Shown here piece by piece: positions 1 to 39,615 of a stretch of DNA of 40,492 nt. Position 1 is the stretch's first letter; each line of letters starts with the position of its first letter. Made by a program: the position numbers and the translations under genes. Source of the stretch: Patescibacteria group bacterium (lineage in GTDB: Bacteria > Patescibacteriota > Gracilibacteria > UBA1369); the NCBI GenBank assembly GCA_963169815.1, contig CAUJDC010000013.1, positions 1-40,492 on the forward strand. The letters run 5' to 3'. Below the pieces are notes generated by a model. It was given only the letters and a program-made list of their open reading frames with translations. It did not search any database and was not told where the DNA came from.

Positions 1-518
1 AGGAACTGAGTTGAGTCAAGAGTGTCCAATGTATCAGCATCACCACCGGTTGAAGCAATCCATCTTGAGGCAGCAGGATTTGTATCCTGACAGATGTATT
101 CTTTATTTGCCGTTAAAGTTTGAGCACCGTTCACACCAGAGATGTTAGAAGAACCAACAAAGATTTTTTTACCTCTATCAGTTGAAGCCGCGCAGGTAGG
201 CACGTCTGCTAGAACTGTAACGTTTTGTACTCTAGCATTTACCAATTGATTAGATTGCATATCCAAGTCATTTGACAATTGGAATTGGCCATTGGTGATA
301 TTGAATCTGAGATATCTTGATCCAGCACTACCAAAATTCAAAGTAATGTTGCCAGTAGAAGTATCGTCATAGTCGATGTAATACTGATCATCAGTAGTTA
401 CACCAGATGTGTTTGCACCGTCATAAAGCACCTCAGCTTGCGCAATCCCAGTGCTAACCAGGAACGTTAACAGAAGAGATGCCCGAAGCGCTTTCAATAA
501 ACTGAATGTTTTATTCAT
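1..518 (-). CDS. Secreted fibre/adhesin-like protein, N-terminal part (runs off the left edge)
   Basis: The frame is open from an ATG at 516-518 down to base 1, giving 172 codons with no stop, so the C-terminus lies outside the window. Residues 1-28 look like a signal peptide: a basic start (MNKTFSLLKALR), a hydrophobic stretch and an A-x-A-like end (IAQAEV). The rest is rich in Ser, Thr, Asn, Asp and Gly with few charged helices, as in secreted beta-rich surface proteins. The last visible residues contain DADTLDTLDSTQF, a motif I associate with large tail-fibre-like or surface proteins of CPR bacteria; this is from memory, not a search. It lies downstream of the pilus operon on the same strand but has its own good promoter. 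An exported surface protein is likely; its specific function is unknown. Confidence 0.7.
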   Translation of the reverse strand, partial: MNKTFSLLKALRASLLLTFLVSTGIAQAEVLYDGANTSGVTTDDQYYIDYDDTSTGNITLNFGSAGSRYLRFNITNGQFQLSNDLDMQSNQLVNARVQNVTVLADVPTCAASTDRGKKIFVGSSNISGVNGAQTLTANKEYICQDTNPAASRWIASTGGDADTLDTLDSTQF

Positions 519-603: not shown

Positions 604-668
604 ATTGACATAAAGTCAAAAAGGAGGAGAATCCTTCAGTTCTAGGATTTTACTCAGAATTATCTGAG
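604..668. repeat. Cluster of three short inverted repeats at the left edge of the porin island
   Basis: Three small perfect inverted repeats follow one another: TTGAC/GTCAA (604-608, 614-618), AATCCT/AGGATT (630-635, 644-649) and CTCAGA/TCTGAG (653-658, 663-668, loop ATTA). The composition switches from AT-rich to GC-rich just after them. They could be weak terminators, operator sites or chance. An AAGGAGGAG stretch at 621-629 resembles a Shine-Dalgarno sequence but is about 70 bases from the porin ATG. Confidence 0.35.
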
Positions 669-698
669 CCTTATGCCTAGAAGAACCTCGAAAGCACG

Positions 699-1940
699 AT
701 GAAGCATCTTCTGATCAGTCTGCTGGCTATTACGGCTAGCGTAATCAGTTCTGCCTTCCCCGCCCAAGCCCAAACGGCGCCTGCGGCAATGGCTACCAAA
801 CACATCAACCCTCAACCTGCTACTCCCTCGCTCGGTGAGTTCAATCCCTTCGCTGTGGTCGAAGCCTATTACGCCTGGAACTTCAACCGTCCGGCGAACG
901 GCCTCAACAACGACCATGCGACCGATTCCAGTCGCCACAATAGCTTTACCGTGGGCAACTTTGCCCTCGGTGGACTGTGGAAGAAGGAAGCGCTCTCCGG
1001 CAAGGTCGTCCTGATGTTCCCGCAAACTCCGCATACCGTCTACCCGACGGATCCGGTCAGTTCCGGCAAACCCGGACTCGCCGACGCTTCCACCTGGAAA
1101 TACGTCCAGGAAGCCTGGTTGGCCTACAAGGCCCCGGTGCTGGCTGGGTTGACCATCTCGACCGGCCTGTTCCGTAGCTCTTTCACACAGGAGAAAACTT
1201 TCGTCAAGGACAACTGGAACCTCAGTCGCGGTCTATCCTTCTTCGGCACCCGCATGTATTACGTGGGTGTTCGCGCCCGTCTGCAGTTCGACGAGCACTG
1301 GTCTTTTACTCTCTCCGGCCTCAACGGCTGGAACGGAGTGATCGACAACAATGAGGGCAAGACCATCGATGGTCAGCTGCTCTACGAACAGAAGAACAAG
1401 CTCACGATCTCCTTCCAGTACATGGGGGGGCCGGAGCGCGCCAGGGATGCTCCCGAAGGGGACGATTCTTGGCGGCACGCCTTCGATGCCTGGGGCAAGC
1501 TTGCCCTTGGCAAGCGCATCTGGCTGGGTCTCGGCTTGAACGGTGGACTCGAAGAGAACAATTTCGGCCGCTCCGGCTGGTACTCAGGAGCGCTCTACTC
1601 GCAGGCCCAGCTCTGGCGGCAGGATGACAGTCCCAACAAGGGCTTCTATCTGGCCACCCGCGTCGAGGGGTTTCACGAAGACGTGGCATCGAACAGCAAG
1701 GGCAAGGCCACACCGATCTTCTGGCCAGACCCGGCCAAAAGCAGCCTCGCTTCTTTCACGGGTACCGCCGAGTACAAGCCGATGGAGCTGGTCTCCTTCC
1801 GTCTCGAAGGTCGCTACGATCACGGCGACCACGACATATTCTACGGCAAAAAGTCGCCCAAGGACGACAAAGGCGGGTACAAGCCCGACCAGCGCGATCA
1901 GTTCTTGATGATGCTCGGAGCCACTGCCTGGTGGCAATGA
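699..1940 (+). CDS. OmpL-like (BBP2-type) outer-membrane beta-barrel porin, foreign composition
   Basis: A 413-residue protein with a classical signal peptide (MKHLLISLLAI, cleavage likely near PAQAQ, residues 22-26) and alternating aromatic/polar strands throughout. The start of the mature region (VEAYYAWNFNRP, with NSFTVGNFALGG shortly after) and the closing strand EYKPMELVSFRLEGRYD are typical of the putative beta-barrel porin-2 family, whose members sit in the outer membrane of diderm bacteria and pass small solutes. Two sampled 60-base lines have 55-67% GC, against roughly 28-42% in nearby genes, and codons such as GGC, CTC and AAG dominate. It has no good ribosome site and no operon partner. 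It is either a horizontally acquired gene or a mis-joined contig segment. The family call is by pattern recognition and fairly secure; the origin is inference. Confidence 0.75.
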   Translation: MKHLLISLLAITASVISSAFPAQAQTAPAAMATKHINPQPATPSLGEFNPFAVVEAYYAWNFNRPANGLNNDHATDSSRHNSFTVGNFALGGLWKKEALSGKVVLMFPQTPHTVYPTDPVSSGKPGLADASTWKYVQEAWLAYKAPVLAGLTISTGLFRSSFTQEKTFVKDNWNLSRGLSFFGTRMYYVGVRARLQFDEHWSFTLSGLNGWNGVIDNNEGKTIDGQLLYEQKNKLTISFQYMGGPERARDAPEGDDSWRHAFDAWGKLALGKRIWLGLGLNGGLEENNFGRSGWYSGALYSQAQLWRQDDSPNKGFYLATRVEGFHEDVASNSKGKATPIFWPDPAKSSLASFTGTAEYKPMELVSFRLEGRYDHGDHDIFYGKKSPKDDKGGYKPDQRDQFLMMLGATAWWQ

Positions 1941-2000
1941 TGTCTCTTTCTTAGCTTACGCTCAGTCAACTTAAGTTGTGCGAATACGTACTCGTTCAAA

Positions 2001-2024
2001 CCCCCTCTGGGAAACCAGAGGGGG
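2001..2024. terminator. Strong hairpin between porin and pilC
   Basis: A perfect 10-bp stem (CCCCCTCTGG at 2001-2010, CCAGAGGGGG at 2015-2024) closes a GAAA loop. It lies downstream of both the porin (plus) and pilC (minus), so it could end transcription from either side. Neither flank has a long U-tract (AAAAC on one side, TTTG for the minus strand), so its efficiency as an intrinsic terminator is uncertain. Confidence 0.6.
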
Positions 2025-2045: not shown

Positions 2046-3359
2046 TTAGCCAATTCCGCCTCCGGCGATATTGGTTAGTTGAATAATTGGTAACATAATT
2101 GCTGCGACTAGTCCTCCAACAGTAATACCTACTACTACTATAATCAACGGTTCCATAACTTTAGTTAAAGCAGTTACTGCATTGGATACTTCTTCATCAT
2201 AGAACTCACCGATTTTTTGCGTAACATTTTCTAGCTGAGCTGTTTGTTCACCTACTTCAATCATATTTACTAACATTGATGGGAAAAGTTTGGAATTGGA
2301 GAGGTTTTCGGCCATTGGAATACCACTTTTCATGTCTTCAGCAGTCAACAAAAATCTTTTACGATAAACTTCATTTCCCACTGCTACCGCCACGATTTCC
2401 ATAGCCTTGATAATTGGCACGCCAGAAGAAAGTAAATTACCAAATGAATAAGCAAACTTTGATAATGTCGATTTTTTCACCAGATTTCCAAATACTGGAA
2501 TACTCAGTAAGAATAAATCCCAGTAATAGCGCCCAGATTTAGAATTTTTCCAGGAAATAATCGCTGAAACACTGCCGATTATTACCAAAAATATTGCCCA
2601 CCAGTAAGCCAAAGTGAAGTTACTCGTGTCAATCAAAAGCTGCGTAACAGCAGGTAATTTTTGACCACTTTGAGTAAATAGATCAGCAATTTGTGGAATT
2701 ACCAGCACCATCATCAAGAAAATTACCACGATCATCAGGGCGATAATAGCTATCGGATAAACCATTGCACCTTTAACTTTACCAACAATTGAAGCAGACT
2801 TCTCCATTTCTGAAGCTAAATTACGCAAGGTTTGATTTAATTGACCAGAGGCTTCGCCAGCTTGAATCGCACCCACTTGAGCTTGAGAAAACACTTCCGG
2901 ATATTTCAACATTGATTGTGAAAAACTGCTACCTGTTTCAATTTGATGAGCCAGATCAAACAGTACTCTTTGTAATTTTATGTTTTTCTCAGATTGAACT
3001 CCCAAAATATTTAAAGACTTAACCAGAGGCATACCTGCATTAATCATAGTTGCTAGTAGGCGATAGCTAACAGCAATTTCCTTCACAGTTATTTTACTGT
3101 GATCAATCATGTAGTCATTTAGTTTGGTAAAACTGTCCAACAAACTATTTCCAGTATACTTTGACTGTAAACCTTTTTTCGCCAAGAAGATTTTTTGATT
3201 GGTGGCATTTTTATCCAAACCAATATTCATAATAAAACCGGGCACAGTTTGGTCTTCACCTTTATTAAGGAGACTTTTATCTGCTTTTTTTTCCGCACCT
3301 ACCTTGAATGTTTCTGATTCAAGATCTTCGTAAAACCCTTTTGTCTGTCTCTCAGCCAT
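2046..3359 (-). CDS. pilC: Type IV pilus assembly inner-membrane platform protein (PilC/GspF family)
   Basis: A 437-residue protein with two GspF domains (roughly residues 95-215 and 295-420), each ending in long hydrophobic segments, for example VIFLMMVLVIPQIADLF and the C-terminal IIVVVGITVGGLVAAIMLP. The family signature AQVGAIQAGEASGQL is present in domain 1. The protein anchors the pilus machine in the cytoplasmic membrane and couples the PilB ATPase to pilin polymerisation. About 90 residues at the N-terminus are charged and probably cytoplasmic. It lies 10 bases after pilB in the same operon and is the last pilus gene here. Confidence 0.92.
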   Translation of the reverse strand: MAERQTKGFYEDLESETFKVGAEKKADKSLLNKGEDQTVPGFIMNIGLDKNATNQKIFLAKKGLQSKYTGNSLLDSFTKLNDYMIDHSKITVKEIAVSYRLLATMINAGMPLVKSLNILGVQSEKNIKLQRVLFDLAHQIETGSSFSQSMLKYPEVFSQAQVGAIQAGEASGQLNQTLRNLASEMEKSASIVGKVKGAMVYPIAIIALMIVVIFLMMVLVIPQIADLFTQSGQKLPAVTQLLIDTSNFTLAYWWAIFLVIIGSVSAIISWKNSKSGRYYWDLFLLSIPVFGNLVKKSTLSKFAYSFGNLLSSGVPIIKAMEIVAVAVGNEVYRKRFLLTAEDMKSGIPMAENLSNSKLFPSMLVNMIEVGEQTAQLENVTQKIGEFYDEEVSNAVTALTKVMEPLIIVVVGITVGGLVAAIMLPIIQLTNIAGGGIG

Positions 3360-3369
3360 GGTTTTTTAT

Positions 3370-4683
3370 TTATAATTCCATTTTCTTGGCTACACGATAA
3401 ATTTCTTCGAGTGATGTGATTCCCTGCATTGCTTTGATCACACCATCCTGTTCCAAAGTCACCATCCCGCTTTTCATAGCAGTTTTTTCAATATCCAAAG
3501 CAGAATCTTTATCCAAAATCATTCTACGAATCTGATTATTCATGCGCATAATTTCATAGAGACCAACACGACCTTTATAACCGATGCCATCACATTCTGG
3601 ACAGCCATGTTCACTTTCTTTGAAGAAGTTTGGTTTGGCTGTTTGTTCTTCAGTAACTATTCCTGGCACTCCCAGATTATCAATAGCCATTTTGAGTCTG
3701 CGTTGCTCATTTTCATCAGGAGTATGAGGAACTTTACATGCCTGGCAAAGTTTTCTAACCAGACGTTGGGCAATAATCAATTCAATAGTCGAAGCCATCA
3801 GAAACGGCGCGACTCCCAAGTTATCAATACGTGTCAATGTTTCAATCGCGCTATTAGTATGGATAGTGGATAGTACAAGGTGGCCTGTCAATGATGCTTC
3901 AATGGCAGTTTGAATAGTTTCATGGTCACGAATTTCCCCCACCATGATAATATCCGGATCCTGACGAAGTGCAGTACGTAGACCAGAAGCGAAGGTGTAA
4001 TCAATGTCGGCATGCACCTGACTTTGATTGAGACCATCGATCTGAATTTCCACCGGGTCTTCAATAGTCAAAATGTTTACATCAATATTATTGAGACGGT
4101 TTAAGCAGGAATACATAGTAGTAGTCTTACCTGAACCAGTTGGCCCTGTGGTTAGAATAATTCCATTTGGTAGATCAAGCGCTTCAGTCAGCAGTTGGAA
4201 ATTATGTGGATCAAGACCAAGTTCTGGCAAATCAGGAATCTTGCGAGACTTGTCCTGAATACGCATTACGATCTTTTCACCATTTACTGTTGGAAGTGTT
4301 GATACACGAAGATCCATTTCACGATTATCCTTCGTAGTTACGGCACAACGACCATCTTGAGGAATACGCTGTTCATCAATTTTCAAATTAGACATGATTT
4401 TCACTCTCGAAACAACAGCCGGATGAATATTTAATGGATATTCAACAATCTGTCTGAGCACACCATCTATTCTATAGCGCAATCTCACCGTGTAAGTTTC
4501 TGGCTCAATATGAATATCTGATGAGCGCAAATCCAAAGCATAACTAATAATATTCAAAACCATCTGAGGAATATTTCCGCTCAAAATACCTTCCTGAAGC
4601 TGTTTGAGCTTCGGATTCTGTTCGGCCGCCGCTTCTTGTGGAGCAGTCCTGCCGACAACTGATTGTGTATTTTGTTCGTCCAT
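3370..4683 (-). CDS. pilB: Type IV pilus extension ATPase (PilB/GspE family), short form
   Basis: A hexameric ATPase that powers pilus extension. Visible motifs are the Asp box DIHIEP (residues 56-61), Walker A GPTGSGKT (180-187), Walker B leading to E250 (IIMVGE), the His box TGHLVLSTIHTN (267-278) and a zinc tetracysteine C313-x2-C316 with C361-x2-C364, which points to PilB/GspE rather than PilT. At 437 residues it is shorter than the usual 550-570 because the N-terminal MshEN-type domain is missing; only about 35 residues precede the core. It follows the pilO-like gene by 18 bases and precedes pilC by 10. No retraction ATPase, pilin or prepilin peptidase gene is in the window. Confidence 0.94.
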   Translation of the reverse strand: MDEQNTQSVVGRTAPQEAAAEQNPKLKQLQEGILSGNIPQMVLNIISYALDLRSSDIHIEPETYTVRLRYRIDGVLRQIVEYPLNIHPAVVSRVKIMSNLKIDEQRIPQDGRCAVTTKDNREMDLRVSTLPTVNGEKIVMRIQDKSRKIPDLPELGLDPHNFQLLTEALDLPNGIILTTGPTGSGKTTTMYSCLNRLNNIDVNILTIEDPVEIQIDGLNQSQVHADIDYTFASGLRTALRQDPDIIMVGEIRDHETIQTAIEASLTGHLVLSTIHTNSAIETLTRIDNLGVAPFLMASTIELIIAQRLVRKLCQACKVPHTPDENEQRRLKMAIDNLGVPGIVTEEQTAKPNFFKESEHGCPECDGIGYKGRVGLYEIMRMNNQIRRMILDKDSALDIEKTAMKSGMVTLEQDGVIKAMQGITSLEEIYRVAKKMEL

Positions 4684-16917: not shown

Positions 16918-18330
16918 TTAAAAAGAACTAATTTTATCTTCTTTACTCGCCAAAATTGTCGCAGCATTACGGTCAATTTTCAATGTTAAATTAAGGGCTG
17001 CGCTGAAATAATAATCCACCGGTCCAGTTCCAATACCAATGCTGTCAGTTTCAAATAGCTGTTCATCAGTCAGTAAACTCAATGCTTCCGTGGCCTTGCC
17101 ATTTACCAAAACCATTTTTAATATTTGTTCCTTCAAGTCAGCTGTACTTCCGCTAGTGGCGCTAGTTGTAGTAGTTGCAGCCGCACTTGCTATTAGACAA
17201 TTTTCAGTTCCATTTTCAGGTCCAGCCGAACTTCTTACGCTACCAATCATATAACGAATTTCTTCCTTCAATTGTGCAGACAAACTGCCATCTCCAACTT
17301 GCGCGTAAACTATCACAATGCTGCCATCTGGCATTTGGAAGTAGCTATCCTGTAAGCCAGTCTGCTCAATGTAAATCGATGCGTAAGGCATACTGTTTAG
17401 AGTAATAACCTGCTTATTGGCATCCTGACCATACTCAAGCGTTGATAGATATTTATCCAGAGTTAATTTCTGGCTATTCTCATCACGCGCTACCACAATC
17501 ACCGCGCTATTTGGATAAACTCTGGCGAAACTCACTTGTCCATTTGGGACATCTTTCTTCCAGAAAATCATCTGGTCACTTGCTGGCACCTTTTCCCAAG
17601 TGAAAGGATATTTAATCTTATAACCTTCATTATAATTATTACAGCTATTCCAGCCAGCACTCATTGGGTATTTATCCAATTTATTCTGTTCAACATAAAT
17701 CGCTCTAAAAATTGCCTCGGCAAACTCGACACGAGACATTTTTCTTTCTGGCATATAGCTATTGTCGCTCCGTCCTTCAATTAGCTGTCTATTCTTGGCG
17801 TATTCTACATAAGGAGCATACCAGGCGCTCGTAGATACGTCAGAATAAGGTGAGGTTGAGACAGCGGGTTCATTGAAATTAGTGATCAGGGTTTTTTCAA
17901 TTATTTTCAAACTCTCTGAAGCTGTGATTTCATTAGCAGGTTTAAATGACCCATCTGTGTAACCCTGGACAACATTCAAGCTGAAAGCTTTCTGAACATA
18001 CGGATAATACCAATCTGAAGCTTTTACATCAGGAAAATTTATTTTTTGTAAACTGATACTTTCATCTCCTCTCAGTAATTTTCTTGCTAAAAAAACTATT
18101 TTCAAGGCTTCCGCTCTATTAATAGTTTTATCTGGTTGAAAACTACCATCGGGATAGCCACCAATAATATTATTCAATTTCAAATATTCTACGGCTACTG
18201 AATGCTCACTATGATCTGCCACATCAGGAAAGACGCTCCCTGCAGCCACTATATTGCTACAGCTTAAATTAAAAAAAAATATTAAGCAGCCAGTCAATAA
18301 TTTATTTTTTCTTGTTAATTTCATTTTCAA
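16918..18330 (-). CDS. S-layer homology (SLH) domain protein
   Basis: A 470-residue exported protein. After an N-terminal hydrophobic signal (residues 9-28) come three SLH domains, about 32-75, 98-140 and 160-205, each with the FPDV or YSDV start and a GYPDGSFQP or GYTDGSFKP core. SLH domains bind secondary cell-wall polymers and anchor surface proteins. The remaining 260 residues contain a beta-rich region (YKIKYPFTWEKV, like PsbP-type 'CDS starts with Y-x-I-x-YP' secreted domains), a Thr/Ser/Ala linker (AAATTTTSATSGSTA) and a final small domain. The start overlaps the end of the DsbA-like gene by 29 bases, suggesting coupled translation; Met3 at 18324 is an alternative start. Confidence 0.9.
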   Translation of the reverse strand: MKMKLTRKNKLLTGCLIFFFNLSCSNIVAAGSVFPDVADHSEHSVAVEYLKLNNIIGGYPDGSFQPDKTINRAEALKIVFLARKLLRGDESISLQKINFPDVKASDWYYPYVQKAFSLNVVQGYTDGSFKPANEITASESLKIIEKTLITNFNEPAVSTSPYSDVSTSAWYAPYVEYAKNRQLIEGRSDNSYMPERKMSRVEFAEAIFRAIYVEQNKLDKYPMSAGWNSCNNYNEGYKIKYPFTWEKVPASDQMIFWKKDVPNGQVSFARVYPNSAVIVVARDENSQKLTLDKYLSTLEYGQDANKQVITLNSMPYASIYIEQTGLQDSYFQMPDGSIVIVYAQVGDGSLSAQLKEEIRYMIGSVRSSAGPENGTENCLIASAAATTTTSATSGSTADLKEQILKMVLVNGKATEALSLLTDEQLFETDSIGIGTGPVDYYFSAALNLTLKIDRNAATILASKEDKISSF

Positions 18331-19471
18331 TAATCTTTGTAAAGTTTTCTTCGGATGTAGCGCCTCCTAGGAAAAACTGATTAATGAAAAATCCAGGTGT
18401 ACCCATTACACCGTATTGGCGGCCTTCCTCTGTTTGTCTGGAAATTTTTTCAGCATAAGTACCAGCCTTCGCACAGGCTAAAACCTTGTCTGCATTTGCG
18501 CCTGCCGCTTTGGCCGCCTTTTTAATTTGCTCATAAACTGCTGCTTCAGCCTTATCTCCTGTCTGCATTGCCTCAAAAATATCTGATTGTTGGGCATATA
18601 AATTAGTCACCATTGCTTCTAATTTATTTTGATCGGCCGCGCATTCTGCAGCTCCATTCAAGAGTTGATCAATTCCACCACGATCATAGTTTTTATAAAC
18701 CCAAGCAACATCATTTGGATATTTCTTCAGTACATTATCAATAATTGATTGCATTTCCTGACAATAATGGCAGGTTAAACTAGCGTATTCAGTAATTACT
18801 ACTTTAGCTTTGGCCAAATTGCCCACTACTCTAGCGTCTCCCGGAGCAGGAGTTTCCAAATATTCCATACCTTCTGAACTGAAACTCATGATGCCATTTT
18901 TCTGTGTTATAGCTTGAGCAAACTGAGAATACATTGGATGTTGTTTGATACTGTCATCAGTTGTAAAAATCGGAATGTATTTGGCCTCCAGTTTCTTAAT
19001 AATATCCTGACCAGCTGGGTCATTTTTATCAATTAAAGTAGTTTTAACTTCGGTATTTGGCAGATTTGTTTCGACATTCTTAACATATTGATCAATCGAA
19101 GTTGTTTGATTGGCATCAGACTTGTTCAAAACAATGGTCAAGTTGATCGTAGACTTTGGTACAACAGGCTTTTCTCCAGCTTTATCCAACTTAACTAGGC
19201 CAGTTGAATTAATCATGAAAATCAAATTATTTCTAAAATCACGATTGTATTCAAATAAAACAACGCTGGCAAATACCAGTAATAAAACCAAAGAAACTAG
19301 GCTCCACCACGGGAAAGAACTTTTTTTCTTAGTTACAGTTTTTTCAATTCTTTCTGTCGTATCATGAGAGACCATTTCATTTAATTTTTTTTCCACCACA
19401 TTCTCAGTCTTTTTTGTTTTTTTGGTTTTGCTGATTACTTTTTTTGTAGGCATATTAATTGAATTTTGCAT
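18302..19471 (-). CDS. Membrane-anchored DsbA-like thiol:disulfide oxidoreductase with extra N-terminal domain
   Basis: A 389-residue protein: a Lys-rich cytoplasmic tail, a transmembrane helix (about 55-74), an intermediate domain (about 108-205) that looks like a thioredoxin fold without a CxxC, then a DsbA-type domain with the active site C234-H-Y-C237 (SLTCHYCQEM) and the cis-Pro loop GTPGFFIN. It probably forms or shuffles disulfides in secreted proteins. It overlaps the upstream thioredoxin-like gene by 17 bases; an alternative start at Met7 (19453) would give TAATATG spacing instead. The SLH protein made next in the operon has cysteines and may be a client (inference). Confidence 0.88.
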   Translation of the reverse strand: MQNSINMPTKKVISKTKKTKKTENVVEKKLNEMVSHDTTERIEKTVTKKKSSFPWWSLVSLVLLLVFASVVLFEYNRDFRNNLIFMINSTGLVKLDKAGEKPVVPKSTINLTIVLNKSDANQTTSIDQYVKNVETNLPNTEVKTTLIDKNDPAGQDIIKKLEAKYIPIFTTDDSIKQHPMYSQFAQAITQKNGIMSFSSEGMEYLETPAPGDARVVGNLAKAKVVITEYASLTCHYCQEMQSIIDNVLKKYPNDVAWVYKNYDRGGIDQLLNGAAECAADQNKLEAMVTNLYAQQSDIFEAMQTGDKAEAAVYEQIKKAAKAAGANADKVLACAKAGTYAEKISRQTEEGRQYGVMGTPGFFINQFFLGGATSEENFTKIIENEINKKK

Positions 19472-39511: not shown

Positions 39512-39615
39512 GCATAGAATAGGATTAGTCAATCCACAAATCTCTAAAAACAAAAATAAAAACTAGAGTTCTCACTACATATAACTTTTGAGGACCCATT
39601 AGTATCGAGATTTGG

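Follow-up and report, generated by a model that had tools for sequence, protein, structure and literature searches.

Why does the AT-rich genome of a seemingly monoderm bacterium carry a GC-rich gene for an outer membrane porin? The window analyzed here, the whole stretch of 40,492 nucleotides, is contig 13 of a near-complete Patescibacteria metagenome-assembled genome (MAG), G000, which totals 1.09 Mb over 59 contigs and has a genome-wide GC content of 0.39 and a GC3 of 0.35 (bulk around 0.34). A sequence-only reading had taken the porin gene for either a recent single-gene transfer or an assembly join of two genomes. We compared the locus with G001, an independent MAG of the same genus (JADLFY010000093.1, publicly labeled Candidatus Peregrinibacteria isolate SJ404), with G002 and G007, which represent other genera of the same family, and with G432, a different CPR lineage (Patescibacteria bin.120, JALHOH010000002.1). 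G000 was read as loci nearly whole, around 17 kb excepted; the samples of G001 and G007 were partial, and that of G002 covered about 40% (406 kb). Gene names that do not come from Pfam were read off the sequences.

A GC-rich porin gene between AT-rich flanks

The left part of the window contains the following features:

3 to 518, minus strand: fibre gene, exported, truncated by the contig end; host flank on the left (tblastn to G002 and G007)
519 to 698, no strand: AT-rich intergenic leader (sequence)
699 to 1940, plus strand: BBP2-family (OmpL-like) porin of 413 amino acids, intact ORF with an ATG start (PF07642)
2001 to 2024, plus strand: 10-bp hairpin in the gap between the porin gene and pilC, CCCCCTCTGG-GAAA-CCAGAGGGGG
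2046 to 3359, minus strand: pilC-like T2SSF protein; right host flank (PF00482, E value 1.9e-53)
3370 to 4683, minus strand: pilus ATPase (T2SSE), in the operon of pilC (PF00437, E value 3e-128)

The porin gene proved to be real. Its product matches the PF07642 family (BBP2, putative beta-barrel porin-2, OmpL-like) with an E value of 3e-44 over residues 52-408 of 413; the score of 152 bits is above the cut-off of 26.2, and the match extends over positions 6-335 of the 339 of the model, as expected for a member of the family. A putative N-terminal signal peptide (around residues 1-25) was recognized by eye from a hydrophobic segment and an AQA cleavage-like site. The AlphaFold2 model, of low confidence (pLDDT 54), is a barrel of about 15-16 predicted strands, so that both the signal peptide and the porin-type barrel of the BBP2 family are predicted. 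The best Foldseek matches of this model, OprP, OmpF and Omp32, were all porins (E values of 1e-8 to 1e-10), but share only 10-13% sequence identity with it; a sequence search of solved structures and of NCBIfam gave no match. The gene differs from known BBP2 porins in that it sits in a Patescibacteria genome without Omp85 and has a composition foreign to that genome.

The GC content of the porin gene is 0.589 and its GC3 0.746, against 0.33-0.48 and 0.26-0.44, respectively, for the 29 other tabulated genes of the window. In steps of 60 bp, the GC content climbs from 0.33 to 0.60 over positions 601-721; on the other side, it drops from 0.58 to 0.37 over 1861-2041. The correlation of its codon usage with the genome bulk is 0.13. 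The sharp GC switch on both sides and the changed codon use, both noticed earlier from the sequence, were thus borne out, and the 10-bp hairpin that had been described is present. This hairpin is likely a terminator between the convergent porin and pilC genes, as judged from its sequence and position; a different GC-rich hairpin occupies the equivalent position in G001. The small inverted repeats that had been placed at 604-668 are weak, since the 200-nt leader folds at a z value of only about -1.3. In the leader, a consensus scan revealed a promoter-like TTGACA (605-610) separated by 16 nt from GAGAAT (627-632) on the plus strand.

The junction is shared by a congener and the slot is empty in sister genera

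In G001, a porin fragment of 117 residues is found at a contig edge. It is 44% identical to the G000 porin, has a GC content of 0.58 and a GC3 of 0.65, and ends about 175 bp from the pilC homologue, in the same orientation as in G000. In G002 and G007, the fibre gene lies 110-125 bp after pilC with no porin gene between them. The pilC protein is 82% identical in G001 and 68% in both G002 and G007, the pilus ATPase encoded at 3370-4683 is 90% identical in G001, and the fibre gene product shows 48% identity to G002 and 63% to G007 by tblastn. Because G001 shares the junction, and because pilC and the fibre gene are adjacent in G002 and G007, both flanks of the porin gene are host DNA. These data refute an assembly join of two genomes and show that the porin gene at 699-1940 truly belongs to the chromosome of a Peregrinibacteria genus, in a slot that two sister genera leave empty.

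A BBP2 porin was detected in two genomes among the 353 of the class, which belong to one genus, and in two of 380 genomes sampled across the phylum, where the one additional carrier is G432. The G432 porin (L045 8600-9775, minus strand), at 36-38% identity, is likewise exported and CPR-borne. It differs from the G000 porin, however, in that its GC content equals that of its 57% GC surroundings, that its coding RNA shows no structure excess (z of -1.0) and that it is located near ATP synthase genes. A small ORF just 3′ of it resembles, by eye, a CsoR-type repressor.

The search for a donor yielded distant matches only. Using tblastn against plasmids and phages, we found identities of 24-29%, in Bacteroidota; no porin homologue was found in the viral contigs. 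A scan of genome contigs with two peptide patterns, which a donor could escape because both were taken from the C-terminal third, retrieved the two CPR relatives and nothing else. Across the plasmid, phage, viral-contig and genome-contig searches, no homologue exceeded 44% identity. The rarity of the gene in the class and the empty site in two genera make a foreign origin of the porin plausible.

A GC content above the expectation for an old transfer

Foreign genes are expected to drift toward the composition of their new genome. Between G000 and G001, the NG86 dS value is 1.66 for pilC and 1.33 for pilT. On a two-state estimate, which is rough given the crudeness of NG86 and a nearly saturated dS, third positions that started at 0.8-1.0 GC should by now be at 0.46-0.56. 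The GC content observed at fourfold sites is 0.75 in the G000 porin gene (n = 210) and 0.64 in that of G001 (n = 63). A dS of 1.3-1.7 in the neighboring genes is therefore too old for an unameliorated transfer, and contradicts a recent transfer of this one gene unless the transfer happened more than once. Since the observed values exceed the expectation, either the porin gene was exchanged anew once the two lineages had separated or its GC content was maintained; the other GC-rich genes, described below, favor maintenance. As for a recent arrival, the site is empty in relatives; the gene is nonetheless present in the sister species, and no close donor homologue was found. As for a gene retained at its locus, synteny and high GC are found in two species; the porins, however, have diverged faster (44% identity) than pilC (82%).

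A GC-rich cassette inherited through several genera

The porin gene is not the only GC-rich gene of G000. GC3 exceeds 0.7 in about nine ORFs, most of which encode exported or membrane proteins: besides the porin gene, they comprise two genes for SulP permeases, a gene for a barrel-like exported protein, lipoprotein-like genes and a small unassigned ORF. The codon use of these genes is correlated at r = 0.85-0.94 among themselves and at about 0 with the genome. No Pfam family was found for the barrel and lipoprotein-like genes, and these assignments rest on sequence reading. Three of the units are:

L059 2168-6416 (contig 12), minus strand: cassette of two lipoprotein-like genes (lipo1, lipo2) and one barrel-like exported protein, by sequence reading
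L060 2331-4028, plus strand: GC-rich SulP anion transporter gene, alone among AT-rich genes
L080 14679-16478, plus strand: GC-rich SulP anion transporter gene, alone among AT-rich genes

The gene order rfbD-rfbA-lipo2-lipo1-barrel-csaB-rplS is the same in G000 and G002, and relatives of the barrel gene adjoin the same csaB gene in G007, G002 and G005. Between G000 and G002, protein identity is 34% for the barrel, 43% for lipo1 and 33% for lipo2. Because csaB itself stands at 37%, the cassette and its neighbors are of about the same age. Concomitantly, the GC3 of the cassette reaches 0.83-0.87 in G000 (bulk 0.34) and 0.59-0.69 in G002 (bulk 0.16), and that of the barrel gene 0.70 in G005 (csaB 0.23) and 0.83 in G007 (0.62). 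The cassette thus combines conserved synteny, a divergence like that of its neighbors and a GC3 far above that of the genome. G002 is strictly bimodal, four of its 335 ORFs (in 406 kb) lying at 0.55-0.68 and the next at 0.28. Among the relatives searched, the cassette was seen in this Peregrinibacteria family only. These comparisons of gene order and composition show that at least one three-gene cassette has been inherited at one locus through several genera, with its high GC kept against a strong AT bias. The SulP genes were not found in G001 (a partial sample) or in most relatives, and those of G000 could be recent.

An AT-rich spacer (0.16-0.46) separates the GC-rich genes of the cassette in G002. 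For this reason, a regional mutation or conversion bias was rejected as the source of the GC. The 3′UTR and intercistronic DNA of the GC-rich units are also GC-rich. An insertion sequence or flank repeat that the units have in common was likewise rejected, as no 9-mers recurred in three or more separate units and no Rfam family was found. A shared promoter does not act as a common switch: the motif TTGAC-N-TAGGCT precedes two GC-rich genes and occurs once elsewhere, and it is not found upstream of the porin gene. In the form TTGAC[AT]-N15-19-TAGGCT, only three sites were present in G000 as read (L060 2073-2101, L059 8020-8048 and, on the minus strand near 39.5 kb, window position 39532), the last being the one not upstream of a GC-rich gene. 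The fourth GC-rich gene of G002 (L197 12204-13238, plus strand, contig 4) encodes an exported protein with a C-terminal Cys-rich CGDGF...EKCD motif, recognized by eye.

Predicted excess of RNA structure in most GC-rich coding sequences

The folding of coding RNAs was expressed as a z value relative to synonymous shuffles that preserve the protein, the codon counts and the dinucleotides. The porin gene gave a z of -3.2. Across five window settings its values ranged from -1.9 to -4.3, and in four of them none of the 60 shuffles was as low. For the barrel gene, z was -8.4 in G000, -7.8 in G002, -6.1 in G005 and -5.6 in G007; values of -2.9 and -9.0 were obtained for lipo1, -2.6 and -4.0 for lipo2, and -2.0 and -5.6 for the SulP genes. 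The native gene sets of G000, G002, G007 and G432 had means of -0.04 to -0.44 (sd 1.0-1.4). The 15 most GC-rich genes of G007 averaged -0.9, with one exception at -5.4. GC-rich plasmid controls of the same families gave 0.0 (Methylomagnum SulP), -0.3 (Rhizobium SulP) and +0.8 (Hymenobacter porin), and the Rufibacter porin reached -2.4. When 726 ORFs of G000 were scanned over their first 720 nt with seven shuffles per ORF, stabilization was greatest for the C28 SulP gene, and the porin gene came third. The signal was usually greater on the sense strand; for the 117 residues of the G001 porin it was weak on that strand (z of -1.5). Three of the about nine GC-rich genes (C4, C29 and C12_8125) lack a clear excess, so that the class as a whole is not characterized by RNA structure.

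That bacterial coding regions can be under selection for RNA secondary structure is known (e.g. PMC3763529). The present case shares with it that synonymous sites are ordered to favor base pairing; it differs in being strong in a few GC-rich genes for exported proteins and in being linked to GC retention against an AT bias. The folding predictions suggest that a main reason for the persistence of the GC is selection acting on mRNA structure.

Long hairpins were also observed in the 5′ leaders of L080 14679 (plus strand), L060 2331 (plus strand) and L059 2168-3082 (minus strand), where a simple test with mononucleotide shuffles gave leader z values as low as -7.1. The exceptional G007 gene (L169 2071-3324, plus strand; z of -5.4), in which an IPTLPEW motif was recognized by eye, is possibly a further member of the GC-rich structured class.

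No sign of an outer membrane

Omp85/BamA (PF01103) was not found in G000, G001, G002, G007 or G432, and no OmpA domain was found; the controls were positive in both searches and, for Omp85, included atypical diderms. The earlier impression of a cell without an outer membrane is in keeping with these results, and residence in a membrane assembled by BamA/Omp85, which is usual for the BBP2 family, finds no counterpart here. The missing Omp85 argues against the conventional location of a porin, not against membership in the sequence family. CPR cells studied so far have been described as monoderm (PMC8871954), and published Peribacteria genomes encode peptidoglycan, S-layer and sortase genes (PMC4736985). 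Taken together, the lack of Omp85 and OmpA and the monoderm cells of the CPR indicate that the usual assembly of a porin is not possible in this cell. As no BAM core was found, we favor a function of the porin where the cell touches a diderm partner, or on the cell surface, over one in an outer membrane belonging to the cell itself. An SLH-domain protein is encoded in the window beside a DsbA-like thioredoxin gene (16918-18330 and 18302-19471, both on the minus strand).

Discussion

We give an about even chance to the explanation that the porin is an acquired diderm-type protein and that its gene is one of a set of envelope genes in which selection on the mRNA keeps the GC high. Counting against it are the G001 porin, available as 117 residues at a contig edge and with a weak sense-strand signal, and the three GC-rich genes without a clear excess of structure; the RNA structure is predicted from sequence. 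An ancestor of the genus would have acquired the porin gene from a diderm, and the GC-rich codons would then have been held by selection at the mRNA level, not by recency. The selected messages would be structured, long-lived or slowly translated, and would encode abundant envelope proteins. The porin would be exported by Sec and work at the contact with the diderm partner or at the surface.

A fresh import would likewise be expected to leave GC-rich DNA, and the GC-rich 3′UTR and intercistronic stretches of these units also weigh against selection on codons. Porin genes may have entered the site beside pilC and the fibre gene repeatedly, the donor being a diderm of high GC content and perhaps the host; the copies would then be young and the locus old. 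Such recurrent replacement, to which we give roughly a one-in-four chance, would account for the identity of 44% between the G000 and G001 porins where pilC stands at 82% and pilT at 91%, for the unameliorated porin gene and the patchy SulP genes, and for the uniform, foreign codon use of all GC-rich genes. It is at odds with the kept gene order of the cassette and its divergence like that of csaB and pilC, and with the absence of an RNA-structure excess from most GC-rich controls of the same families, although the Rufibacter plasmid porin is an exception. A chimera or bin contamination would be in keeping with a draft MAG in 59 contigs, a contamination estimate of 1.15% and sharp GC edges; this we consider practically negligible, since the junction recurs in an independent MAG, the flanks adjoin in sister genera, and the same pattern is seen at several loci with conserved host-gene flanks.

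The remaining readings concern the place where the porin is used. That G000 encodes two barrel-type exported proteins and lipoproteins could point to an unrecognized outer membrane housing the porin and the barrel protein, but the Omp85 and OmpA searches, the monoderm descriptions of CPR cells and the SLH protein of the window make this unlikely. Alternatively, the GC-rich genes could be made for another cell: their DNA or RNA would pass into a diderm host of high GC content, where the Sec, Lol and BAM machineries would place the proteins, with codons matched to the host and a structure that protects the message. The products indeed suit a diderm envelope while the producer lacks BamA, and foreign codon use has been kept over genus-level time together with ordered RNA structure. 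Against this, G000 possesses cognate tRNAs for several GC-ending codons, in a scan that recognized only 28 tRNA genes, and we know of no precedent for delivering genes or messages to a host for envelope building. Furthermore, the T4SS of Patescibacteria mostly lack a relaxase (PMC12102498). We regard this delivery as improbable. Its extension to the family, in which Peregrinibacteria would keep envelope genes in host style (codon use and RNA architecture) and deliver the genes or messages, so that the host equips its own envelope with the porin, the barrel protein and the lipoproteins to the benefit of the epibiont, appears about as improbable.

Under the explanation that we prefer, maintenance of GC by selection on mRNA, a handful of genes for exported proteins resists compositional drift. 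In G002, a genome of 29% GC, a syntenic cassette that crosses genera has a GC3 of about 0.6 against about 0.16-0.17, and its mRNAs are predicted to be unusually folded. This would offer a direct, testable case of selection at synonymous sites strong enough to override the AT bias of a genome, and it raises the concrete question of what use a seemingly monoderm epibiont makes of outer membrane proteins.
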